Assembly (NCBI GenBank): GCA_016879935.1
Contig: JAACJQ010000148.1
Location: 1-47,579 of the forward strand
DNA length: 47,579 nucleotides
Reading direction: 5' to 3'
From: Archangiaceae bacterium
Lineage (GTDB): Bacteria; Myxococcota; Myxococcia; Myxococcales; Myxococcaceae
In this document: piece after piece, positions 7,402 through 44,845 of the stretch
Layout: the number at the start of each line of letters is the position of its first letter
Numbering within the stretch: the first letter of the stretch is position 1
Position numbers and translations under genes: made by a program
Notes under the pieces: generated by a model
Database searches by the model: none
What the model was told of the DNA's origin: nothing
What the model saw: only the letters and a program-made list of their open reading frames with translations

Positions 7402-8091
7402 CTACTCGGGCGCGGTCAGCTTGTAGCCGACGCCTCGAATGGTCTCGATGATGTCGCCCGAGGGCCCGAGCTTCTCGCGCAGGCGCTTGATGTGCGTGTC
7501 GACGGTGCGCGTCGTGATCTCGGCGTCGATACCCCAGACGTCAGACAGCAGGGTCTCGCGGGTCTGCACGCGGCCCGGCCGCTCGAGGAACGTCTTGAGC
7601 AGTCGAAACTCGAGGGCGGTCAGCACCACCGGCTTTCCCTTCACCGTCACTTCGTGCCGATCGATGTCGAGCACGATGTCGGGCGCGGTCAGCTTGCCGT
7701 TGCTCGAGACCGCCTTCGGCTCGTTGCCGTCGCGGCGCAGCACGTTCTTGATGCGGAGCATCAGCTCTTTCACCGAGAACGGCTTCACCACGTAGTCGTC
7801 GGCGCCCAGCTCGAGGCCCTTCACGCGGTCTGACTCTTCGCCGCGCGCGGTCACCATGATGATGGGCACGCGTTTGGCGTCGCCTTCACGAACGAGCCGC
7901 GCCACCTCGGTGCCACCGATGTCGGGCAGCATGAGATCGAGGAGGATCAGATCGGGCTTGAAGCTCTTCGCGCGCGAGACACCAGCCGCTCCCGTGCGCG
8001 CCACGTCGGTCTCGAAGCCTTCCTGCTTCAGGTTGTATTCGAGCAGCGACGCGAGGTCCTGCTCGTCTTCGACGATGAGGATGCGCGACAT
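7402..8091 (-). CDS. PhoB/OmpR-family response regulator (second of two)
   Basis: This is a 229-residue regulator with a receiver domain (E8/D9, phosphoacceptor D52 in LILLDLMLPD, VTARGEE, VVKPFS) and a C-terminal winged helix (LTALEFRLLKTFL, DVWGIDAEITTRTVDTHIKRLREKLG, IRGVGYKL). The start ATG at 8091 gives MSRILIVEDE and has AGGAAG just upstream; the frame extends 38 residues further but without homologous character. It is the first gene of the minus-strand run leading to the kinase, so it is the probable cognate regulator and likely PhoB counterpart. It and the regulator at 4377-5072 share long identical blocks, which suggests an old duplication. Confidence 0.94.
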   Translation of the reverse strand: MSRILIVEDEQDLASLLEYNLKQEGFETDVARTGAAGVSRAKSFKPDLILLDLMLPDIGGTEVARLVREGDAKRVPIIMVTARGEESDRVKGLELGADDYVVKPFSVKELMLRIKNVLRRDGNEPKAVSSNGKLTAPDIVLDIDRHEVTVKGKPVVLTALEFRLLKTFLERPGRVQTRETLLSDVWGIDAEITTRTVDTHIKRLREKLGPSGDIIETIRGVGYKLTAPE

Positions 8092-8138
8092 GCGCAGCTT
8101 CCTAACCCAACTGCCTCCGTGGCATAAGCGGCGCGCGC

Positions 8139-8477
8139 ATGGCGACTGGCAAAGAGAAGCGGAAGGAAGAGCGCGTTCCCGTCGATCTGTGGATCGAGGC
8201 GTCACGCGACGGTGAGCTGTACTTCCAGCGGGCCTCGAACCTGAGCGTCGGTGGGGCGTACTTCACGCAGACGATTCCGTTGCCCGTCGGGAGCCGCGTG
8301 GCGCTGAAGTTCGAGCTGCCCCAGGAGCCGATCGAGGTCGTGTGCGAAGGAGAGATCGTCACGGCCAAGGAGCTCGGCATGGGCGTCTCGTTCATCAACC
8401 TGAACGCCGGCGATCGAAAGAAGATCGAAGGCGTGATCGCGAAGATCGCCGCGAAGCTCGAGAAGCTGTCGAAGTGA
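8139..8477 (+). CDS. PilZ-domain protein (putative c-di-GMP receptor)
   Basis: This 112-residue protein is essentially a single PilZ domain. The first c-di-GMP motif (RxxxR type) is represented by KRKEERVPVDLWIEA and the second by NLSVGGAYF ((D/N)xSxxG). Both are present, so binding of c-di-GMP is plausible. The C-terminal helix (about 90-112) is Lys-rich. It starts 47 bp from the divergent response regulator and ends 1 bp from the convergent lipoprotein. PilZ proteins of this short type in myxobacteria act in motility or polysaccharide control, but nothing here shows which partner it uses. Confidence 0.9.
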   Translation: MATGKEKRKEERVPVDLWIEASRDGELYFQRASNLSVGGAYFTQTIPLPVGSRVALKFELPQEPIEVVCEGEIVTAKELGMGVSFINLNAGDRKKIEGVIAKIAAKLEKLSK

Positions 8478-10581: not shown

Positions 10582-10770
10582 ATGGGCGTACCCAAGAAGC
10601 GCACTTCGAAGATGCGGCGTGATCGCCGCCGCGCTGGCAACAACAAGCTGAAGACCGCCGTGCAGGTGATCAAGTGCTCGAACTGCGCTGCGCCGACGAT
10701 GCCTCACCGCATCTGCCCGGCGTGTGGTCACTACGACGGCAAGAAGGTCGCACGCGGCACCAGCGACTGA
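10582..10770 (+). CDS. rpmF: 50S ribosomal protein L32
   Basis: This 62-residue protein is a component of the large ribosomal subunit. It has the L32 N-terminus GVPKKRTSKMRRDRRRAGN and a zinc-ribbon built from CSNC and CPAC, so it is the zinc-binding (C+) paralogue type. An AAAGGAAG-like ribosome-binding site lies about 10 bp upstream of the ATG. The usual next gene in many bacteria, plsX, is absent; a terminator and the fabH promoter region follow instead. Confidence 0.97.
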   Translation: MGVPKKRTSKMRRDRRRAGNNKLKTAVQVIKCSNCAAPTMPHRICPACGHYDGKKVARGTSD

Positions 10771-10817
10771 TTTCGGCCGCGACCCGCGGTTGAACTTCTT
10801 CAATCCGTTCGGCCCGA

Positions 10818-10860
10818 CCTCTCGGAGCGCTCTCACCAGCGCTTCGAGGGGTTTTCGTGT
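10818..10860 (+). terminator. Rho-independent terminator after rpmF
   Basis: A 14-bp stem (10818-10831 with 10838-10851) contains two G-T wobbles and closes a six-base loop. TTTT (10852-10855) follows and then further T-rich sequence. This is the clearest intrinsic terminator in the window. It separates the DUF177-rpmF unit from the fab genes, so fabH must have its own promoter downstream. Confidence 0.85.
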
Positions 10861-10896
10861 TTGCGCTTCGTTCGTCTTCGCCAACCCCTCGTGGCG

Positions 10897-10935
10897 ACTG
10901 CAAACTGCGTAAAAACCGACGCAGTGACATGCAGT
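10897..10935 (+). promoter_or_regulatory. Nested inverted repeats upstream of fabH (candidate operator)
   Basis: The inner arms ACTGCGT (10904-10910) and ACGCAGT (10919-10925) are a perfect 7-bp inverted repeat with an 8-bp A-rich spacer. Outer arms ACTGCA (10897-10902) and TGCAGT (10930-10935) are also complementary. The site ends 13 bp before the fabH ribosome-binding site. A closely related sequence stands before fabG (13203-13225), where 20 positions agree in an alignment of about 24 with one gap. This is the pattern expected for a dimeric repressor controlling both fab units. The regulator is not in the window. Confidence 0.6.
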
Positions 10936-10963
10936 TGGTTTCTTGGGTAAGGAGCGCCCCCGC

Positions 10964-11944
10964 ATGCGCGCACACATCATCGGCACCGGAAGCTACGTCC
11001 CCGAGAAGGTGCTGACGAACCGCGACCTCGAGAAGATCGTCGAGACGACGGACGAGTGGATCGTCGAGCGTACTGGCATTCGTGAGCGACACGTCGCGGC
11101 GCCGGGCGAGAACACCTCTGACATGGCGGTGAAGGCTGCGATTCGGGCCCTCGAGATGGCGTCGACCCGCGCCGACGAGCTCGACTTGATCATCGTCGGC
11201 ACCGTCACGCCCGACATGCCGATGCCCGCCTGTGCCGCGTTCGTCGCGCACAAGCTCGGCGCCACGAAGGCCTTCGCGTTCGATCTCTCGGCGGCGTGCG
11301 CAGGTTCGCTGTTCGGTTTGTCGGTGGCCTCGCAGTTCATCGAGACCGGAAAAGCGAAGCGGGTGCTCGTCATCGGCGTCGAGCTGTTGACCCGCATCGT
11401 CGACTGGAAAGATCGAAACACCTGCGTGCTCTTCGGAGACGCTGCAGGCGCGATGGTGGTCGGCCCCTCGAACGACGAGAGCCGCGGCATCATCTCGACG
11501 CACCTGCACACCGACGGCGCGCAGACGGGCATTCTCTGCATTCCCGGTGGTGGCTCGAAGACCCCGGTCACGCACGAGACGGTCGATCAGCGCCTGCAGT
11601 TTGTCTCGATGAACGGCCGTGACGTCTACAAGTTCGCAGTGCGCGCGCTCACCGACGCGGTGCACGAGGCCTTCACGCACAACAACATCACCGCCGACCA
11701 CGTCACGCACCTCGTCGCCCATCAGGCGAACGTGCGCATCATCGACGCGGTGCTCGAGCGCGTGAAGGTGCCGAAGGAGAAGGCCTTCCTCAACATCGAC
11801 AAATACGGCAATACGTCGTCGGCCTCGCTGCCCATGACGCTCGACGAGGCCAATCGTGCCGGGAAGCTCAAGCCGAACGACACGATCCTGATGATGGCCA
11901 TCGGCGCGGGCATGTCGTGGGGCAGCGCCATCGTTCGCTGGTAG
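10964..11944 (+). CDS. fabH: 3-oxoacyl-ACP synthase III
   Basis: FabH condenses acetyl-CoA (or another short acyl-CoA) with malonyl-ACP to start fatty acid synthesis; in myxobacteria it may also accept branched primers. The 326-residue protein has catalytic C112 in DLSAACAGSLFG, His in VAHQANVRIIDAV and Asn in KYGNTSSASLP. The ATG at 10964 is chosen because AAGGAG (10949-10954) lies 9 bp upstream and MRAHIIGTGSYVPEKVLTN is the normal N-terminus; an upstream in-frame start adds seven atypical residues. It is 39 bp from fabD and probably co-transcribed with it from the operator-bearing promoter region. Confidence 0.97.
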   Translation: MRAHIIGTGSYVPEKVLTNRDLEKIVETTDEWIVERTGIRERHVAAPGENTSDMAVKAAIRALEMASTRADELDLIIVGTVTPDMPMPACAAFVAHKLGATKAFAFDLSAACAGSLFGLSVASQFIETGKAKRVLVIGVELLTRIVDWKDRNTCVLFGDAAGAMVVGPSNDESRGIISTHLHTDGAQTGILCIPGGGSKTPVTHETVDQRLQFVSMNGRDVYKFAVRALTDAVHEAFTHNNITADHVTHLVAHQANVRIIDAVLERVKVPKEKAFLNIDKYGNTSSASLPMTLDEANRAGKLKPNDTILMMAIGAGMSWGSAIVRW

Positions 11945-11983
11945 CAGTCGGTGCTTTTCAGACTCTTCGAAGGAGCTTGAACC

Positions 11984-12916
11984 ATGGGTTCCGTGGCGTT
12001 CGTGTTTCCAGGGCAGGGCAGCCAGTACGTCGGCATGGGCAAGGCGCTCGCCGAGGCATTCCCCGAAGCGCGCGCGGTGTTCGAAGCCGCTGACGATGCG
12101 CTCCAGGAGAAGCTCTCGACCCTGTGCTTCGAAGGGCCCGAAGACGCACTCAAGCTGACCGCCAACACGCAGCCCGCGATTCTGACCGTGTCGGTCGCCG
12201 CCCACGCGGTGTTCTCGAAGCGGTTCTCGATGGCGCCTGCGTTCGTGGCGGGGCACTCGCTCGGGGAGTACTCGGCGCTCGTCGCTGCCGGCGCGATGTC
12301 GCTGGCCGATGGTGTTCGGTCGGTGCGCGCGCGCGGCACGTTCATGCAGGAGGCCGTTCCCGCCGGGGTCGGCGCGATGTCGGCCGTGCTGGGCCTCGCT
12401 CCCGAGAAGGTGAAGGAGCTCTGCGAGCAGGCCGCGCAGGGTGAGATTGTCTCGTGCGCGAACTTCAACGAGCCGGCGCAGACGGTGATCGCCGGTCACG
12501 CGAAGGCCGTCGAGCGCGCGGGTGAGCTGCTCAAGGCCGCGGGAGCCAAGCGCGTGTTGCCGTTGCCGGTGAGCGCTCCTTTCCACTGCGCGCTCATGTC
12601 GCCCGTCGTGCCGCGCCTCGACGAGGTGCTCTCGAAGGTCGCGTTCAAGGTGCCGAGCGCGCCGGTGGTGACCAACGTCGAAGCCACGCCGAACGCCGAC
12701 CCCACGAAGGTGAAGGAGCTGTTGCTGCGTCAGGTGACGGGCTCGGTGCGGTGGATCGAGTGCGTGCAGTCGCTCGAGAAGGCCGGCGTGACGAAGATCG
12801 TCGAGCTCGGGCCCGGCAAGGTGCTGTGTGGCCTCGTGAAGCGCATCGCCAAGGGCCTCGAGTGCGTGAACGTCGAAGACCCCGCGAGCCTCGAGAAGAC
12901 GCTCGCCGCGCCCTGA
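11984..12916 (+). CDS. fabD: Malonyl-CoA:ACP transacylase
   Basis: FabD transfers malonyl groups from CoA to ACP, supplying all elongation steps. The 310-residue protein has the FPGQGSQ N-terminal motif (8-14), the nucleophile S92 in GHSLGEYSALVAAG, and the active-site His in PVSAPFHCALMSP (about 200). GAAGGAGC lies about 9 bp before the ATG. The gene ends with TGA that is immediately followed by the stop of the convergent Kunitz gene, forming TGATCA with no terminator between them. It is separated from fabG by that gene. Confidence 0.97.
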   Translation: MGSVAFVFPGQGSQYVGMGKALAEAFPEARAVFEAADDALQEKLSTLCFEGPEDALKLTANTQPAILTVSVAAHAVFSKRFSMAPAFVAGHSLGEYSALVAAGAMSLADGVRSVRARGTFMQEAVPAGVGAMSAVLGLAPEKVKELCEQAAQGEIVSCANFNEPAQTVIAGHAKAVERAGELLKAAGAKRVLPLPVSAPFHCALMSPVVPRLDEVLSKVAFKVPSAPVVTNVEATPNADPTKVKELLLRQVTGSVRWIECVQSLEKAGVTKIVELGPGKVLCGLVKRIAKGLECVNVEDPASLEKTLAAP

Positions 12917-13138
12917 TCAGCCGCCGCAGACCTGTTGGCATTCCTTCACGGTGTCGAAGGGCACGACGCCATCGCAGCCACCCCAGACGAAGCTCTCGCA
13001 GCGCTTCGTCGCGGGGTTGAAGAACGCCTTGGGGAAGGCCGCGCGGCAGGGGCCAGGCGCGGGCTCCAACGAGCACCGACTGTCACAGCCCGAGACGAGC
13101 ACGAGGAGCACGAACAGCCGAACGGGGTGCGAAAGCAT
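12917..13138 (-). CDS. Kunitz/BPTI-type protease inhibitor lipoprotein
   Basis: This 73-residue protein has a signal peptide with lipobox (LVLVSGC, lipid Cys18), then a single complete Kunitz domain. The six cysteines are C22, C31, C47, C55, C67 and C71. Their spacings 9-16-8-12-4 match bovine pancreatic trypsin inhibitor (9-16-8-13-4) except for one deleted residue. GPCRA matches the BPTI reactive loop GPCKA, placing Arg32 at P1, so trypsin-like serine proteases are the predicted targets. FFNP, FVWGGC and ECxxxCGG are further Kunitz marks. It would sit on the periplasmic or outer face as a lipid-anchored inhibitor. No clear ribosome-binding site is seen. Kunitz domains are mainly animal; bacterial examples are few. 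Confidence 0.88.
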   Translation of the reverse strand: MLSHPVRLFVLLVLVSGCDSRCSLEPAPGPCRAAFPKAFFNPATKRCESFVWGGCDGVVPFDTVKECQQVCGG

Positions 13139-13202
13139 TTGTGCAGTTTGTCATCGGTGCGAACGAACTTCGCCACCTGCCGTCCTCGACATCGGCCTGA
13201 TC

Positions 13203-13225
13203 ACTCCGTAAACGCCGCGCAGTGA
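13203..13225 (+). promoter_or_regulatory. fabH-operator-like palindrome upstream of fabG
   Basis: The stretch starts ACTCCGTAAA and ends CGCAGTGA. It aligns with the fabH site at 10904-10927 with 20 identical positions and one single-base gap. It sits 47 bp before the fabG ATG, within the region that also carries the promoter of the divergent Kunitz gene. The palindrome is less perfect than the fabH copy (one mismatch in the left arm). Confidence 0.55.
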
Positions 13226-13271
13226 AGGGCCCCCCGCTTGCACAGGGCGCGCGCCTCCCCGGGAGACTGTG

Positions 13272-14018
13272 ATGAAGGACTTCAACAACAAGATCGTTCT
13301 GGTGACGGGCGGCTCCCGAGGCATCGGCCGCGCGATCGCGCTCGAGTTCGCGAACCGTGGCGCCACCGTCGTCATCACCTATGCGGGCAACGAGGCCGCG
13401 GCGGTCGAGACCATCAAGCTGCTCACCGACGCAGGCGTGAAGGCGCAGGCCAAGAAGTTCGACGTGAGCGACCCGGCCGCCTGTTCGGCCTGCGTCGACG
13501 AGGTGATGCGCGAGCACGGCCGCCTCGACGTGCTGGTGAACAACGCGGGCGTCGCCATCGACGGGCTGCTCATGCGCTTCAAGGACGACGACTGGGACAA
13601 GACCCTCGACACGAACTTGAAGGGCGCCTTCTCGCTCATGCGCGCGGCCAGCCGGCCCATGATGAAGCAGAAGGGCGGGGCGATCGTGAACGTCTCGTCG
13701 ATCGTCGGAGAGATGGGCAACGGCGGCCAGGCCGCCTACGCCGCCTCGAAGGCGGGCCTCATCGGCCTCACCAAGTCGGTCGCCAAAGAGCTCGCCTCCC
13801 GCAACATTCGCGTCAACGCGGTCACGCCTGGCTTCATCACCACCGACATGACCGCAGCCCTCAACGACGAGCTCAAGGCCAAGATGGCCGACGCGATTCC
13901 ATTGGGTCGCATCGGGAACCCCGAAGAGATCGCGAAGGCGGTCGCTTTTCTCGCCTCAGACGCCGCCTCGTACATCACCGGAGAAGTCCTCAAGGTGAAT
14001 GGCGGCATGTACATGTAG
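13272..14018 (+). CDS. fabG: 3-oxoacyl-ACP reductase
   Basis: FabG is the NADPH-dependent reductase of the beta-keto group in each elongation cycle. This 248-residue short-chain dehydrogenase has the Rossmann motif [10 protein letters not shown], the NNAG motif ([12 protein letters not shown]) and the catalytic set Ser (VNVSSIVG), Tyr and Lys (YAASKAG). The C-terminus [12 protein letters not shown] is characteristic. The ATG at 13272 is preferred over an adjoining GTG because GGGAG (13261-13265) is then spaced 6 bp away. It heads a unit with acpP and fabF. Confidence 0.96.
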
Positions 14019-39289: not shown

Positions 39290-39949
39290 TCAGACCGGCA
39301 TCTTCCGGTACACGCCCACGACCTTGCCGAGAATCATCGTCTGCTTGAACTGCGACTTGTGCACGTAGATCGGCTGCATCGTCTTGTTCGCGGGCTGGAA
39401 CCGAATCTTGTCGCCCTCGGGGTAGTAGCGCTTCACCGTGGCCTCGTCCTCGATGAGGGCCACCACGATGTCGCCGGCTGACGCGCTGGGCGCCTTGCGC
39501 ACGAAGAGGAAGTCACCGTCGTAGATGCCGTCTTCGATCATCGACTCGCCCTTCACGCGCAGGGCGAACACTTCTTTGCCGCCCGCGCCGCCGAGCAGGA
39601 AGGAGTCGATGCGCACCGAGTCTTCGATGTTCTCGGTCGCGAGCAGGGGAGCGCCGGCCGCAACCCGGCCCAGCAGCGGCACGTCGATCATGTTCGCGTC
39701 ACGCTTCACCGTGCCGAGGCCGAGCACCATGCGCGCGCGCTTCGTGGGAACGAGCGAGCGGCTCTGCTGTTCTCCACGCGTGAGGTACCCCTTTCGCTCC
39801 AGCGCCTTGAGGTGGTCGTTCACGCCGTTGGTCGAGGCGATGCTCATCTCTTCGCCGATCTCGCGAATGGTCGGTGGAAAGCCACGCTCCTCGGAGGTGC
39901 GGGTGATGAAGGCGAGGATCTCTTTCTGCCGGTCGGTGAGCTCTTCCAC
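39290..39949 (-). CDS. lexA: SOS repressor LexA
   Basis: LexA represses DNA-repair genes and self-cleaves when RecA is activated. The 219-residue protein has an N-terminal winged helix ([24 protein letters not shown]), cleavage site A98-G99 in [11 protein letters not shown], catalytic S136 (KGESMIEDG) and K173 (EATVKRYY). Translation begins at GTG 39949, since the earlier open frame has no LexA character. Two operator-like sites lie at 39967-40006, pointing to autoregulation. It is a monocistronic gene facing away from the lipoprotein-mla operon. Confidence 0.97.
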
Positions 39950-40055: not shown

Positions 40056-40553
40056 ATGCGTCGGCTGTCGGCAGGTGTGTTCTTCGTTCTCCTCCTCGGG
40101 TGCGGCCCGGGCCTTCGTGAAGGCCGCTTCGTGAAAGACGGCGTTCGGTACAAGGTGGCGCAGCCCGCCGAGCCGGCCTGGCGCCGCATCGACTTCGCCG
40201 AGAACGACCTTGCCTGGGCCACGAAAGACTCCGGCCACATCATCGCGATGAACGCGACCTGCAAGGATCACGGCGACCCGTCGCTCGAGGTGCTCACCGG
40301 GCATCTGCTCATCGGCTTCGACGAGCGGGTGCTGACCGATCGCAAGAGCTTCACCCTCGATGGCCGGGCCGCGCTGCGGTCGAACTTCGACGTGTCGATC
40401 GACGGCGTGCCGGCCGAGGTCGAGGTCGTGGTGATGAAGAAGAACGGCTGCGTGCACGACTTCACGTACGTCTCGCCGCGTGGCCAGCGCAGCACCCAGC
40501 AGCCCACCTTCGACGCGCTCATCGCGGGGTTCGCGCAGGAGCAGGGGCCGTGA
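40056..40553 (+). CDS. Lipoprotein at the head of the mla operon
   Basis: This 165-residue lipoprotein ([19 protein letters not shown], lipobox LLGC) precedes mlaE and overlaps its start by GTGA, so the products are made together. The mature part resembles a small beta-sheet domain ([59 protein letters not shown]) without known motifs. Because it is co-translated with a lipid transporter, an outer-membrane or periplasmic part of that system is a reasonable inference. It could be the equivalent of MlaA or MlaC, but shows no similarity I can see. Confidence 0.72.
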
Positions 40554-41404
40554 GCTCACCCGACGAGACGCCTGCTCCGCGTGGCCCCGCGACGGGTGAG
40601 ACCGAGCTCGCCGAGCTGGTGCAGCAGGAGCTCGAGTCGATCATTCCGTTCACGGCGCGCATCAACCGCGCGTGGCTCCAGCTGGGCGGCATGGTGTTCA
40701 TGTTCGCGCGCGCGTGCCTCCGCGCGGTGACGCCGCCCCTCGCGCTCGGAGCGACGGCCTACCAGGTGGTGATGCTCGGTGTTCGGTCGTTGTCCATCGC
40801 GACGCTCGTCGCGCTCTTCGCCGGCCTCGTCATCTCGCTCCAGTTCGCCTACTTCCTCGCGAAGTTCGGCGTGCAGCACACCGTCGGCAAGGTCGTCATC
40901 CTCACGCTGTTTCGTGAGCTGGGCCCCGTGCTCACCGCCCTCACCGTCGGCGCGCGCATCGGCTCGGGCATCACGGCCGAGCTGGGCTCGATGAAGGTGA
41001 CGGAGCAGATCGACGCCATCTCGGCGCTCGGCGCAGACCCGATCAAGAAGCTCGTCACGCCGCGTCTCATCGCCTGCGCCATCGTCATGCCGGCCCTCAC
41101 CGCGCTCGCCGACGTGTTCGGCCTGCTCGCCGGGTCGGCCGTGGTGAACCAGCAGTACGACATTCCCTTCGATCAGTACTTCCGCTCGGCCATCGACACC
41201 GTGTCGCTCGTCGACTTCGGCGGCGGCATCTTCAAGTCGTTCATCTTCGGCCTCATCATCGCCATCGTCGGCTGCTTCAAGGGCTTCAGCGTCTCGGGCG
41301 GCACCGAGGGCGTGGGCCAGGCGACGACCGAGACGGTGGCCATCGCGTCGGTGTCGGTCTGCCTCTCTGACTTCTTCATGACGAAGTTGTTCCTGGCGTT
41401 CTGA
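40550..41404 (+). CDS. mlaE: MlaE-family ABC transporter permease
   Basis: MlaE is the inner-membrane permease of the retrograde phospholipid transport system. The 284-residue protein has the conserved EQIDAISALGADPIKKLVTPR coupling helix and the hydrophobic helices of MlaE (VMLGVRSLSIATLVALFAGLVI, LTALTVGARIGSGITAELG). The GTG start at 40550 overlaps the previous stop by GTGA; its own stop overlaps mlaF as TGATG. Extra N-terminal residues (1-40) are hydrophilic. Confidence 0.94.
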   Translation: MSSPDETPAPRGPATGETELAELVQQELESIIPFTARINRAWLQLGGMVFMFARACLRAVTPPLALGATAYQVVMLGVRSLSIATLVALFAGLVISLQFAYFLAKFGVQHTVGKVVILTLFRELGPVLTALTVGARIGSGITAELGSMKVTEQIDAISALGADPIKKLVTPRLIACAIVMPALTALADVFGLLAGSAVVNQQYDIPFDQYFRSAIDTVSLVDFGGGIFKSFIFGLIIAIVGCFKGFSVSGGTEGVGQATTETVAIASVSVCLSDFFMTKLFLAF

Positions 41405-42186
41405 TGAGCGACTCCGACGTCACCCGCCGCGAGAAGGCGCCCACCTCTGACGAGGTGGTGATTCGGTTCGTCGATCTCTGGAAGAGCTTCGGCCCCAAGA
41501 AGATCTACGAGGGCCTCGATCTCGAGGTGAAGAAGGGCGAGACGCTCACCATCATCGGCGGCTCGGGCACCGGCAAGAGCGTGCTGCTCAAGTGCCTCAT
41601 CGGCCTCTTGTACCCCGACTCGGGCCAGGTGCTGCTGCACGACGAGAACGTGGCGCAGATGAACGAGAAGCAGCTGCGCGAGGTGCGCAAGCGCGTGTCG
41701 ATGGTGTTCCAGGGGGCGGCGCTGTTCGACTCGCTCACCGTCGGAGAGAACATCGCGTACCCGCTCAACGAGCACCTGAAGCTCTCGCACGAAGAGCTCA
41801 CCGAGCGCATCGCGAAGAACCTCAAGATGGTGAACCTGCCCGGCATCGAGCACATGCGCCCGTCGGATCTCTCGGGCGGCATGCGCAAGCGTGTCGGCCT
41901 CGCGCGCGCCATCGCCATCGAGCCCGAGATCATCCTCTACGACGAGCCCTCCACCGGCCTCGACCCCATCTCGACCCGCGTGATCGACGAGCTCATTCTC
42001 TCGATGAACGACAAGCTGGGCTGCACGCAGATCGTCGTCACCCACGACATGGACAGCGCGTTTCGCATCTCCGATCGCATGGCCATGCTCGCCCACCGAA
42101 AGATCGTGGCGCAGGGCACCGTGGAAGAGTTCAAGGCCTCGACCAACCCCGACGTGCGCGCGTTTCTCGACGCGAGAGCGAGCTGA
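41404..42186 (+). CDS. mlaF: MlaF-family ABC transporter ATPase
   Basis: MlaF supplies ATP energy for the lipid transporter. The 260-residue protein has Walker A GGSGTGKSVLLK, Q-loop in MVFQGAALFDSLTV, signature LSGGMRKRVGLARA, Walker B IILYDEPSTGLDP and H-loop VVTHD. The start ATG at 41404 overlaps the mlaE stop. Its partner mlaD follows after 6 bp. Confidence 0.95.
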   Translation: MSDSDVTRREKAPTSDEVVIRFVDLWKSFGPKKIYEGLDLEVKKGETLTIIGGSGTGKSVLLKCLIGLLYPDSGQVLLHDENVAQMNEKQLREVRKRVSMVFQGAALFDSLTVGENIAYPLNEHLKLSHEELTERIAKNLKMVNLPGIEHMRPSDLSGGMRKRVGLARAIAIEPEIILYDEPSTGLDPISTRVIDELILSMNDKLGCTQIVVTHDMDSAFRISDRMAMLAHRKIVAQGTVEEFKASTNPDVRAFLDARAS

Positions 42187-42192
42187 ACCGAC

Positions 42193-43335
42193 ATGAGCAC
42201 GCCCCAACCCCTGAACCCAGCCGAGCGTGAGCGCCGCATCATCGTGCGCGCCGGGCTCTTCATCGCCTTCGGCATCGCGCTCGCGTTGCTGGTCGTCTTC
42301 GTCATCGGCAAGGAGCGCAACCTCTTCGACGAAGAGAACACCTACACGGGCGCGTTCGAGAACGTCGACGGCCTGCAGTTCGACTCGCCCGTTCGCCTCG
42401 GCGGCGTCACCGTCGGCCGCGTCACCAGCATCAAGTTCGGCTCCGATCTCGGCGACAAGCGCATCATCGTCACCATGGAGGTCGTGAAGAAGTACGAGGA
42501 GCGCATTCGCAAGGACTCGGTGGCCCGCATCACCAACCGCGGCGTGCTCGGTTACAAGGCCGTCGACATCTCCATCGGCAGCCCCGATCAGGCGGTCATG
42601 AAGGACAAGGCCGAGCTGGCGACGGGCTCGTCGGGTGACATCAGCTCGATCCTCAAGGCCACCGGCGAGATCATCGACAACACCGTCAACATCACGCGCG
42701 ATCTCAAGACCGGCGTCGCTTCGTACACGAACCCGCAGATGGTCGGAGACGTCGCCGAGGTCTTGAAGAGCGCCAAGAACATCATGCACGAGGTCGAGGC
42801 GGGCAAAGGCGTGCTCCACATGCTCGTCTACGACAAGGGCGTGACGAACGACGTGAAGGCCGTGCTGACGCAGGTCTCGGCCAGCGCGGTGAAGCTCGAC
42901 TCGGCGATCAATCGCGTCGACGGGCTGCTCGCTGACGTCAAGCAGGGCGACGGCACCCTCCACGCGCTCATCTACGACAAGCAGGTGGCGAGCTCGATCT
43001 CGGACCTGGGCAAGGCCGCCGACGAGGTCTCGACGCTCATCAACGACGCGAAGACCCGCAAAGACGGCGTCGTCTACCAGCTCGTCTACGGCGACTCGCG
43101 CGTGCTGCTCACCGACCTGGGGCAGGCTGCCGCCGACATCAAGTCGATGACGGCGAAGATCAACAAGGGCGAGGGCTCGCTGGGCGCCATCATCAACGAC
43201 CCCACCGTCTACGAGGACCTGAAGGAGATTCTCGGCAACGTGAAGCGCAACCGCATTCTGCGGGAGCTCGTGCGCTACTCGATCTCCAACAGCGAGCAGG
43301 TCGACAAGGCCGGGAAGCCCGTCGAGAAGAAGTGA
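42193..43335 (+). CDS. mlaD: MlaD-family (MCE domain) protein
   Basis: MlaD binds phospholipid in the periplasm. The 380-residue protein has one N-terminal membrane helix (LFIAFGIALALLVVFVIG), then the MCE domain (about 45-140: AFENVDGLQFDSPVRLGGVTVGRVTSIKF) and a long helical C-terminal region (about 150-370) with two repeat-like segments (KGVLHMLVYDKGVTNDVK and DGTLHALIYDKQVASSISD, then GVVYQLVYGDSRVLLTD). It is longer than E. coli MlaD (183 residues), like actinobacterial MCE proteins. It ends the operon. Confidence 0.93.
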   Translation: MSTPQPLNPAERERRIIVRAGLFIAFGIALALLVVFVIGKERNLFDEENTYTGAFENVDGLQFDSPVRLGGVTVGRVTSIKFGSDLGDKRIIVTMEVVKKYEERIRKDSVARITNRGVLGYKAVDISIGSPDQAVMKDKAELATGSSGDISSILKATGEIIDNTVNITRDLKTGVASYTNPQMVGDVAEVLKSAKNIMHEVEAGKGVLHMLVYDKGVTNDVKAVLTQVSASAVKLDSAINRVDGLLADVKQGDGTLHALIYDKQVASSISDLGKAADEVSTLINDAKTRKDGVVYQLVYGDSRVLLTDLGQAAADIKSMTAKINKGEGSLGAIINDPTVYEDLKEILGNVKRNRILRELVRYSISNSEQVDKAGKPVEKK

Positions 43336-44362: not shown

Positions 44363-44845
44363 ATGCGCATCGCTCTCGTCGTGCTGTTGGCCCTGTCGTC
44401 GACGGTGTTCGCGGCCGCTCCGAAGCGCATCAGCCTCGAGGTGTCGAACGCCGACATTCACTCGGTGCTGCGGCTCTTCTCGCAGGTGGGCGGCTTCAAC
44501 CTGGTGGTGAGTGAAGAGGTCACGGGCAAGGTGACGGTGAGCCTGCGCAACGTGCCATGGGACGAAGCGTTCAAGGTGGTGGTGGCCTCCAAGGGGCTGG
44601 GCGCGGAGCAGACGGGCAGCATCGTGCGCGTGGCCCCGCTGACCCGGCTGACCGAGGAGGCGCAGGCCCGGCAGCGCATCAAGGAGCTCGAGTTCGCCGC
44701 GAAGCCGCTGACGGTGCGGTTGATTCCCGTGAACTACGCGTCGGCGGAGGAGATGGCAGCGCAGGTGCGGCCGATGCTCTCTCCGCGAGGCAGCGTGACG
44801 GTCGACGCGCGTACCAACACGCTCATCGTGCGCGACGTGGAGTGA
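44363..44845 (+). CDS. Stand-alone secretin N-domain (STN plus NolW-like) protein
   Basis: This 160-residue periplasmic protein (signal LVVLLALSSTVFAAA) has an STN-like N0 domain (about 20-85: ISLEVSNADIHSVLRLFSQVGG, NLVVSEEVTGKVTVSLRNVPWDEAF) and an N1/NolW-like domain (about 115-160: VRLIPVNYASAEEMAAQVRPML, VDARTNTLIVRD). These match the periplasmic domains of PilQ. The secretin pore itself is missing, so it is either a cut-down PilQ relative or an accessory domain. GAGGAGG before the ATG supports the start. It abuts the GGDEF gene by TGATCA. Confidence 0.85.
   Translation: MRIALVVLLALSSTVFAAAPKRISLEVSNADIHSVLRLFSQVGGFNLVVSEEVTGKVTVSLRNVPWDEAFKVVVASKGLGAEQTGSIVRVAPLTRLTEEAQARQRIKELEFAAKPLTVRLIPVNYASAEEMAAQVRPMLSPRGSVTVDARTNTLIVRDVE

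Follow-up and report, generated by a model that had tools for sequence, protein, structure and literature searches.

A lipoprotein family of predicted PsbP/Mog1/LpqN fold linked to MlaE in Myxococcota and other phyla, with a possible docking role at the outer membrane

Transporters of the MlaEFD type are frequently found without the other components of the Mla system. In a recent study, MlaEFD lacking MlaA, MlaB, and MlaC is presented as the ancestral and common state, and 85% of the MlaD homologues are long, with a mean of 374 residues (PMC10665443). The same text poses the open question of whether parts of envelope machines that are missing outside Proteobacteria were replaced by non-homologous proteins. 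Some related systems have a lipoprotein of their own. The Mpc system of Brucella consists of MlaEFD-like proteins, including an MlaD with a predicted needle, and of an outer-membrane lipoprotein of the PqiC family, all of which co-purify as MpcEFDA (PMC12436622). PqiC was proposed to be a collar anchoring the PqiB needle at the outer membrane (PMC10897342), and the accessory lipoprotein LpqN was suggested to link MmpL3 with periplasmic proteins (PMC7458404). Here, we analyze a stretch of 47,579 nucleotides of an Archangiaceae bacterium (Myxococcota; contig JAACJQ010000148.1 of assembly GCA_016879935.1), hereafter the window, where an mlaEFD operon starts with a lipoprotein gene of a different kind. 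The lipoprotein is very probably a functional partner of the MlaE-type transporter. We propose, with a probability slightly below one half (around 0.45), that it is a dedicated outer-membrane docking subunit of MlaEFD.

Pairing of the lipoprotein with mlaE

The lipoprotein gene (40056..40553, plus strand) starts with an ATG and encodes 165 aa; its identification relies on the open reading frame (ORF), on homologues, on an AlphaFold model, and on fold matches. It is the first of four plus-strand genes packed tightly in the window, the others being mlaE, mlaF, and mlaD, and it overlaps mlaE by a start/stop GTGA (40550..40553, plus strand). The gene mlaE (40550..41404, plus strand) starts with this GTG and encodes a lipid ABC transporter permease of 284 aa (Pfam MlaE, E=2.3e-70; TIGR00056 over its cut-off). 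We thus recover the layout described in an earlier reading made from the letters of the window (the sequence-only reading), which placed the lipoprotein first in the operon and noted the overlap.

The association between the two genes is very strong within the family of the source genome. The lipoprotein is present in 91 of the 96 genomes of this family, some of which are assembled in a single contig, and in all 91 it is directly followed by a closely related mlaE that shares its strand and contig, the ends of the two matches being -10 to 196 nt apart. In the five genomes lacking it (G044, G045, G052, G084, and G088), mlaE is represented by distant paralogues at most. Hence, the presence or absence of the lipoprotein tracks that of the cognate mlaE in 96 of 96 genomes. 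The sequence-only reading had suggested to look at the conservation of the neighborhood, and this supports the view that a dedicated lipoprotein belongs to the mlaEFD operon: within the family, it is not missing from the mla loci of relatives that have that mlaE. A second, partial match to the lipoprotein in the source genome (contig C164, stretch L166; E=0.004, 30% identity, within an 894-aa frame) was not accepted. The family presumably includes cultivable myxobacteria.

Across all the loci that we fetched, 104 of the 108 distinct lipoproteins have an mlaE no more than 500 nt away in the same orientation. A 4-nt start/stop overlap is possible in 79 of these 104 pairs (60 ATGA, 18 GTGA, and 1 TTGA), where possible means that there is an in-frame start codon, the start sites being unproven, and where the set includes loci fetched for their mlaE. 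The phylogeny of MlaE is in line with the pairing. In a tree of 147 rows, which leaves out MlaE matches covering less than 150 profile positions, one split (local support 58) gathers all 67 lipoprotein-linked rows together with L212 and L054, and the lipoprotein label requires 3 changes versus a mean of 48.6 when shuffled. In a likelihood tree of 69 rows it requires 4 changes versus around 23, two of the four being forced by starred branches, and the nearest unlinked rows are mostly loci of Acidobacteriota. Near-copies add to the clustering of the label in these trees.

The lipoprotein is much less frequent in the rest of the phylum. It was found in 110 of 195 Myxococcota genomes, and just 19 of these are among the 99 outside the family of the window. 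Therefore, it is not a general part of Mla even in Myxococcota. Among the 19 carriers, mlaE comes directly after the lipoprotein gene in 15, is adjacent to it on the opposite strand in one, and is absent from the stretch that was read in three. To search beyond the phylum we used the best 80 of 581 loci retrieved by similarity to MlaE, some of which have little upstream sequence (72 bases in L048). The lipoprotein is directly upstream of mlaE in 11 of these 80, whose record titles, from which all phylum names of loci are taken, indicate Myxococcota, NC10, Rokubacteria, Dadabacteria, one Deltaproteobacteria (L052), and one Poribacteria (L049). Since L049 and L052 look like the Dadabacteria rows and their titles may be wrong, we count three phyla and not more. 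The lipoprotein and mlaE of L049, titled Candidatus Poribacteria, are very similar to those of a Dadabacteria locus (L046), and this is probably a mis-binned contig.

In the phylum of NC10 and Rokubacteria (that of L035), the lipoprotein is present in 87 of 95 genomes. The best 20 of the 94 matches in this phylum all precede mlaE, 4 of them being already among the loci retrieved by similarity to MlaE. One internal stop was flagged in 14 of the 94 matches; it is probably the end of the gene itself, and in L227, L233, L234, and L238 an open frame spans nearly the whole match. The idea of a gene restricted to Myxococcota was thus rejected, given its presence in NC10/Rokubacteria and in Dadabacteria loci. 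Among 398 genomes of Pseudomonadota there was a single partial match (E=7e-4), which was not accepted, a soft negative since at most 9 candidates were scored per genome. In six sister loci, mostly of Acidobacteriota (L036-L039, L042, and L061), no such lipoprotein was seen by eye ahead of mlaE.

Could the two genes simply be co-transcribed, i.e., could an unrelated envelope lipoprotein share the operon by chance? Operons can hold unrelated genes, and no mlaE was found near the lipoprotein in 3 of the 110 Myxococcota genomes that carry it. Yet, the pairing holds across three phyla with differing surrounding genes, most pairs permit the 4-nt overlap, and in the family the lipoprotein comes and goes with its cognate mlaE. 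We regard this explanation as very improbable. The unit kept across lineages is the lipoprotein plus MlaE; genetically, the lipoprotein is tied closely to MlaE rather than to MlaD in particular.

The other neighbors of the lipoprotein gene vary. In the Myxococcota loci L201, L203, L212, L213, L214, and L215, an ABC ATPase gene is upstream of it, following a transglutaminase-like gene in L201 and L215. In three genomes of one Myxococcota family with small genomes (L206, L207, and L208), the lipoprotein-mlaE pair is immediately preceded by a gene of the diacylglycerol-kinase type (DAGK_cat), which may point to a connection with lipid metabolism.

Predicted fold and sorting of the lipoprotein

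The sequence-only reading had found no similarity between the lipoprotein and MlaA or MlaC, and profile searches agree: the window protein has zero matches in Pfam or NCBIfam at E<=1. When 32 members of its family were compared with our copies of Pfam and NCBIfam, no family was matched at E<0.003, and in NCBIfam there were only weak matches to unrelated names (best E=0.0037, in 2 of the 32). The sequence families of PsbP came out with best E-values of 0.0057 (PF18933, 2 of 32 members) and 0.048 (PF01789, 1 of 32), with scores below the curated cut-offs of these models (17.0 versus 27 and 13.3 versus 23.5, respectively). PF03886, which we take to be the Pfam model of PqiC-type auxiliary lipoproteins, is absent from the 12 Pfam families matched by any of the 32 members at E<=1. 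A profile search of the PDB sequences gave nothing credible, with a single match at E=1.1.

Structure prediction of the lipoprotein alone, as proposed in the sequence-only reading, was more informative. The AlphaFold model, for which 12 homologous sequences were aligned, all of them from the window or from named contigs, is confident (mean predicted local distance difference test, pLDDT, of 89.5; predicted template modelling score, pTM, of 0.82), and in this model the protein has the PsbP/Mog1/LpqN fold over its whole domain. The first Foldseek matches were a chain of the plant NDH-PSI supercomplex (5.1e-08) and a cyanobacterial PsbP (7.1e-08), followed by other PsbPs and, further down, by EagT6 (9.8e-07), DcrB (3.2e-05), and LpqN (3.6e-05). 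A second aligner gave Z-scores of 14.8 for MTC28, PsbP, and CyanoP (133-138 residues), 14.5 for LpqN (137 residues), 12.4 for human MOG1, and 11.3 for DcrB. Sequence identity in those structural alignments is 5-18%. The listed matches are of the PsbP/Mog1/LpqN fold, and the absence of PqiC from these lists excludes nothing. In a library of viral structures there were three matches at E<=0.001, all to phage proteins named lipoproteins.

The family has a few highly conserved positions. Cys69 (codon at 40260..40262, plus strand) and the first and last residues of the segment Cys132 to Asp135 (C-V-H-D; 40449..40460, plus strand), i.e., C69, C132, and D135, do not vary in any of the 109 rows of the alignment, which correspond to 108 distinct sequences plus the window protein added again. 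The two cysteines probably form a disulfide. The signal peptide and the lipobox LLLGC, ending at Cys16, are encoded at 40056..40103 (plus strand), and a lipobox is present in 104 of the 108 distinct homologues. With its lipobox, both invariant cysteines, and a gene placed directly before mlaE, the window protein has the marks of its family.

The residues following the lipidated cysteine are suggestive of location. A study on Myxococcus xanthus reports that Lys at position +2 is common in inner-membrane lipoproteins (8 of 12) and that Ala at +7 is common in lipoproteins of the extracellular matrix (PMC3222651). The window protein has Gly at +2 and Glu at +7, and therefore the outer membrane is its best predicted location. 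Among the 104 homologues with a lipobox, none has Lys at +2, one has Asp at +2, and 4 have Ala at +7.

These data bear on the main rival of the docking proposal, namely that the lipoprotein acts on the side of the inner membrane as an accessory that binds the periplasmic face of MlaE and aids its folding, assembly, or gating. Such a role would fit the fact that lipoprotein and MlaE stay together even when mlaF and mlaD are elsewhere. It would also fit proteins of the same fold which, judging from the titles of their structure entries, bind parts of membrane proteins or membrane complexes, such as EagT6 with the N-terminus of Tse6, SciW with a transmembrane domain of Rhs1, and PsbP with photosystem II. 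However, the +2 residues speak against retention in the inner membrane, and a need for matched translation could by itself account for the order of the genes and their overlap. All in all, an inner-membrane accessory seems to us rather unlikely, although it is the alternative that we take most seriously.

MlaD, MlaA, and MlaC

The rest of the operon is conventional. Downstream of mlaE, with a 1-base overlap, mlaF (41404..42186, plus strand) encodes an ABC ATPase of 260 aa (Pfam ABC_tran, E=6.8e-34; NCBIfam MlaF is the best match, E=1.4e-65, below its cut-off). It is followed by mlaD (42193..43335, plus strand; Pfam MlaD, E=4.5e-17), which encodes 380 aa with a transmembrane helix, one MCE domain (42337..42573, plus strand; PF02470), and a long C-terminus predicted to be helical. 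The permease, the ATPase, and the MCE protein are all recognized by Pfam models (MlaE, ABC_tran, and MlaD) over their cut-offs. In the model of MlaD, the transmembrane helix and the MCE domain are followed by helices only after residue 150, with no barrel, and the pLDDT of the blocks in this region is 29-54. The sequence-only reading called this MlaD unusually long and treated the missing MlaA and MlaC as a variant in itself. Neither view is tenable, because long MlaDs and MlaEFD without MlaA, MlaB, or MlaC are common according to PMC10665443: the 380 aa are ordinary for a long MlaD, as is the bare operon, and we do not place the novelty of the locus in either trait.

The absence of MlaA and MlaC is accurate for the operon and, in the case of MlaA, also for the genome, whereas it fails for MlaC at the level of the genome. 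MlaA (PF04333) was found in none of the 96 genomes of the family, including the source genome, while the positive controls E. coli and Caulobacter were the 2 of 14 that gave a signal. MlaC (PF05494) was found in 92 of the 96. The source genome, which has 9.5 Mb in 445 contigs, encodes two MlaC on contigs C227 and C326, neither of them being the contig of the operon (C80), and the operon itself has no MlaC gene. Hence, in this family we did not find the association of MlaA or MlaC with the operon that would have spoken against the sequence-only reading. Outside the family, MlaA is present in 2 of the 11 lipoprotein-bearing genomes that were tested, both of Rokubacteria, and therefore a simple replacement of MlaA and MlaC by the lipoprotein is not established. 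We adopted neither the strict replacement of MlaA, since these two genomes carry both proteins, nor that of MlaC, given its frequency in the family.

A related explanation is that the lipoprotein serves as a relay or sensor of lipids, its fold holding a phospholipid or another hydrophobic ligand that it exchanges with MlaD in place of MlaC or MlaA. LpqN, a close fold match, was studied with a trehalose monomycolate (TMM) lipid mimic (PMC7458404), and the absence of MlaA throughout the family would leave room for such a function. But a membrane anchor restricts shuttling, and most genomes of the family have MlaC elsewhere. We consider a lipid relay improbable, more so than an inner-membrane accessory.

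Other genes of this kind were observed in the source genome and its relatives. A STAS (MlaB) domain was absent from the 7 ORFs scanned around the operon, no genome-wide search being made. Besides the mlaD of the operon, the source genome has two further MCE genes. At one of its other MCE loci (L153, 6457-9669), an ATPase gene and an MCE gene are accompanied by two genes for MlaE-like permeases, and the lipoprotein profile matched nothing there. Outside any mlaEFD operon, in two genera, a gene of the MlaC family is beside a TolC-type (OEP) gene (in the source genome, G000, at C227, 20457-20891, corresponding to L155, 8401-8985; and in L157, 6264-6899), which makes them a candidate MlaC-TolC pair; in G018 there is an MCE gene around 30 kb from such a site. 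In L160, a second MlaC-type gene (7542-8228) is upstream of a gene encoding an RND transporter of the MMPL family (10633-13284), with one ORF in between. In the window, the operon is preceded by a divergent lexA-type gene (39290-39949), around 106 nt from the start of the lipoprotein gene if the GTG at 39949 is the start, and further downstream an ORF of 160 aa (44363-44845) has secretin N0/STN and Secretin_N domains without a full secretin.

A possible docking role and comparison with known systems

The sequence-only reading proposed a shuttle or outer-membrane role for the lipoprotein, which is plausible; of the two, free shuttling is the less probable because the protein is lipid-anchored. 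We favor docking at the outer membrane by analogy with the layout of Mpc, the collar of PqiC, and the accessory role of LpqN, and because of the predicted location. In such a system, MlaE and MlaF would carry an MlaD hexamer in the inner membrane, whose helical tails would span the periplasm as a needle. At the outer membrane, the lipoprotein would dock the tip of this needle and may receive or deliver phospholipid; with an unrelated fold, it would thereby take on the function suggested for PqiC and MpcA. Its synthesis would be coupled to that of MlaE, so that both are made together. The genomic data support the partnership well, whereas the location, the docking, and the contact with lipids are all inferred.

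Several observations weigh against the docking proposal. The helical tail of MlaD is modelled with low confidence, and the sorting rules come from M. xanthus and a few Proteobacteria only. The source genome has MlaC genes elsewhere, and two lipoprotein-bearing Rokubacteria have MlaA. The distribution also has exceptions: the lipoprotein is rare in Myxococcota outside the family, is beside another ABC ATPase with no mlaE in the stretch read in L203, L214, and L215, and faces an mlaE on the other strand in L212, while L054 has an mlaE of the same clade and no such lipoprotein was seen by eye. Finally, the lipoprotein-mlaE pair is found without adjacent mlaF and mlaD in Dadabacteria-type loci and in several families of Myxococcota. 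All 20 genomes tested, including those where the pair lacks mlaF and mlaD beside it, nevertheless carry MCE genes somewhere.

We tentatively extend the docking proposal to the whole family, and hold this broader claim with less confidence than the one on the window: lipoproteins of the PsbP/LpqN fold may terminate, at the outer membrane, the lipid bridges built by MlaEFD in Myxococcota, Methylomirabilota/Rokubacteria, and Dadabacteria, and could be a third independently evolved solution. If so, they would stand beside the shuttling by MlaA and MlaC and beside the PqiC/MpcA caps or the MlaD barrels. The family is in any case a concrete candidate for a replacement part of the Mla system, as it is coupled to mlaE, unmatched in Pfam and NCBIfam, and frequent both in one family of Myxococcota and in another phylum.

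In the literature searched, which left subscription papers and preprints outside, there was no description of a PsbP-fold protein paired with MlaE, nor of the lipoprotein-MlaE pairing in Myxococcus or elsewhere. The nearest known system is Mpc of Brucella abortus (PMC12436622). In both, an operon of the MlaEFD type includes a gene for a lipoprotein that is not MlaA-like, and there is an MlaD-like protein for which a needle is predicted in Mpc. They differ in that MpcA is a homologue of PqiC, whereas the window lipoprotein has no match to the PqiC model and has a predicted PsbP/Mog1/LpqN fold, and in that mpcA closes its operon, whereas the lipoprotein gene opens that of the window, overlapping mlaE. 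In B. abortus, MlaC was not detected, and the genome of the window has two. The systems are from different phyla, and the formation of a complex was demonstrated for Mpc, while in the window the partnership is predicted from the genes.

The other systems share fewer traits with the window. The minimal MlaEFD of Veillonella parvula (PMC10665443) also has a long MlaD and no MlaA or MlaC in the operon, but an outer-membrane barrel is predicted at the C-terminus of its MlaD, where the low-confidence model of the window MlaD has only helices, and it has no lipoprotein partner. PqiABC of E. coli likewise has an outer-membrane lipoprotein serving an MCE protein that spans the periplasm; however, PqiA has no ATPase domain (PMC12436622), PqiB has three MCE domains, and PqiC is of another family (PMC10897342). 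The canonical six-part Mla of E. coli has MlaE, MlaF, and MlaD in common with the window, which differs by having no MlaC in the operon and no MlaA in the genome. With LpqN, which assists a lipid transporter as an accessory lipoprotein (PMC7458404), the lipoprotein shares its predicted fold and probably this kind of role.

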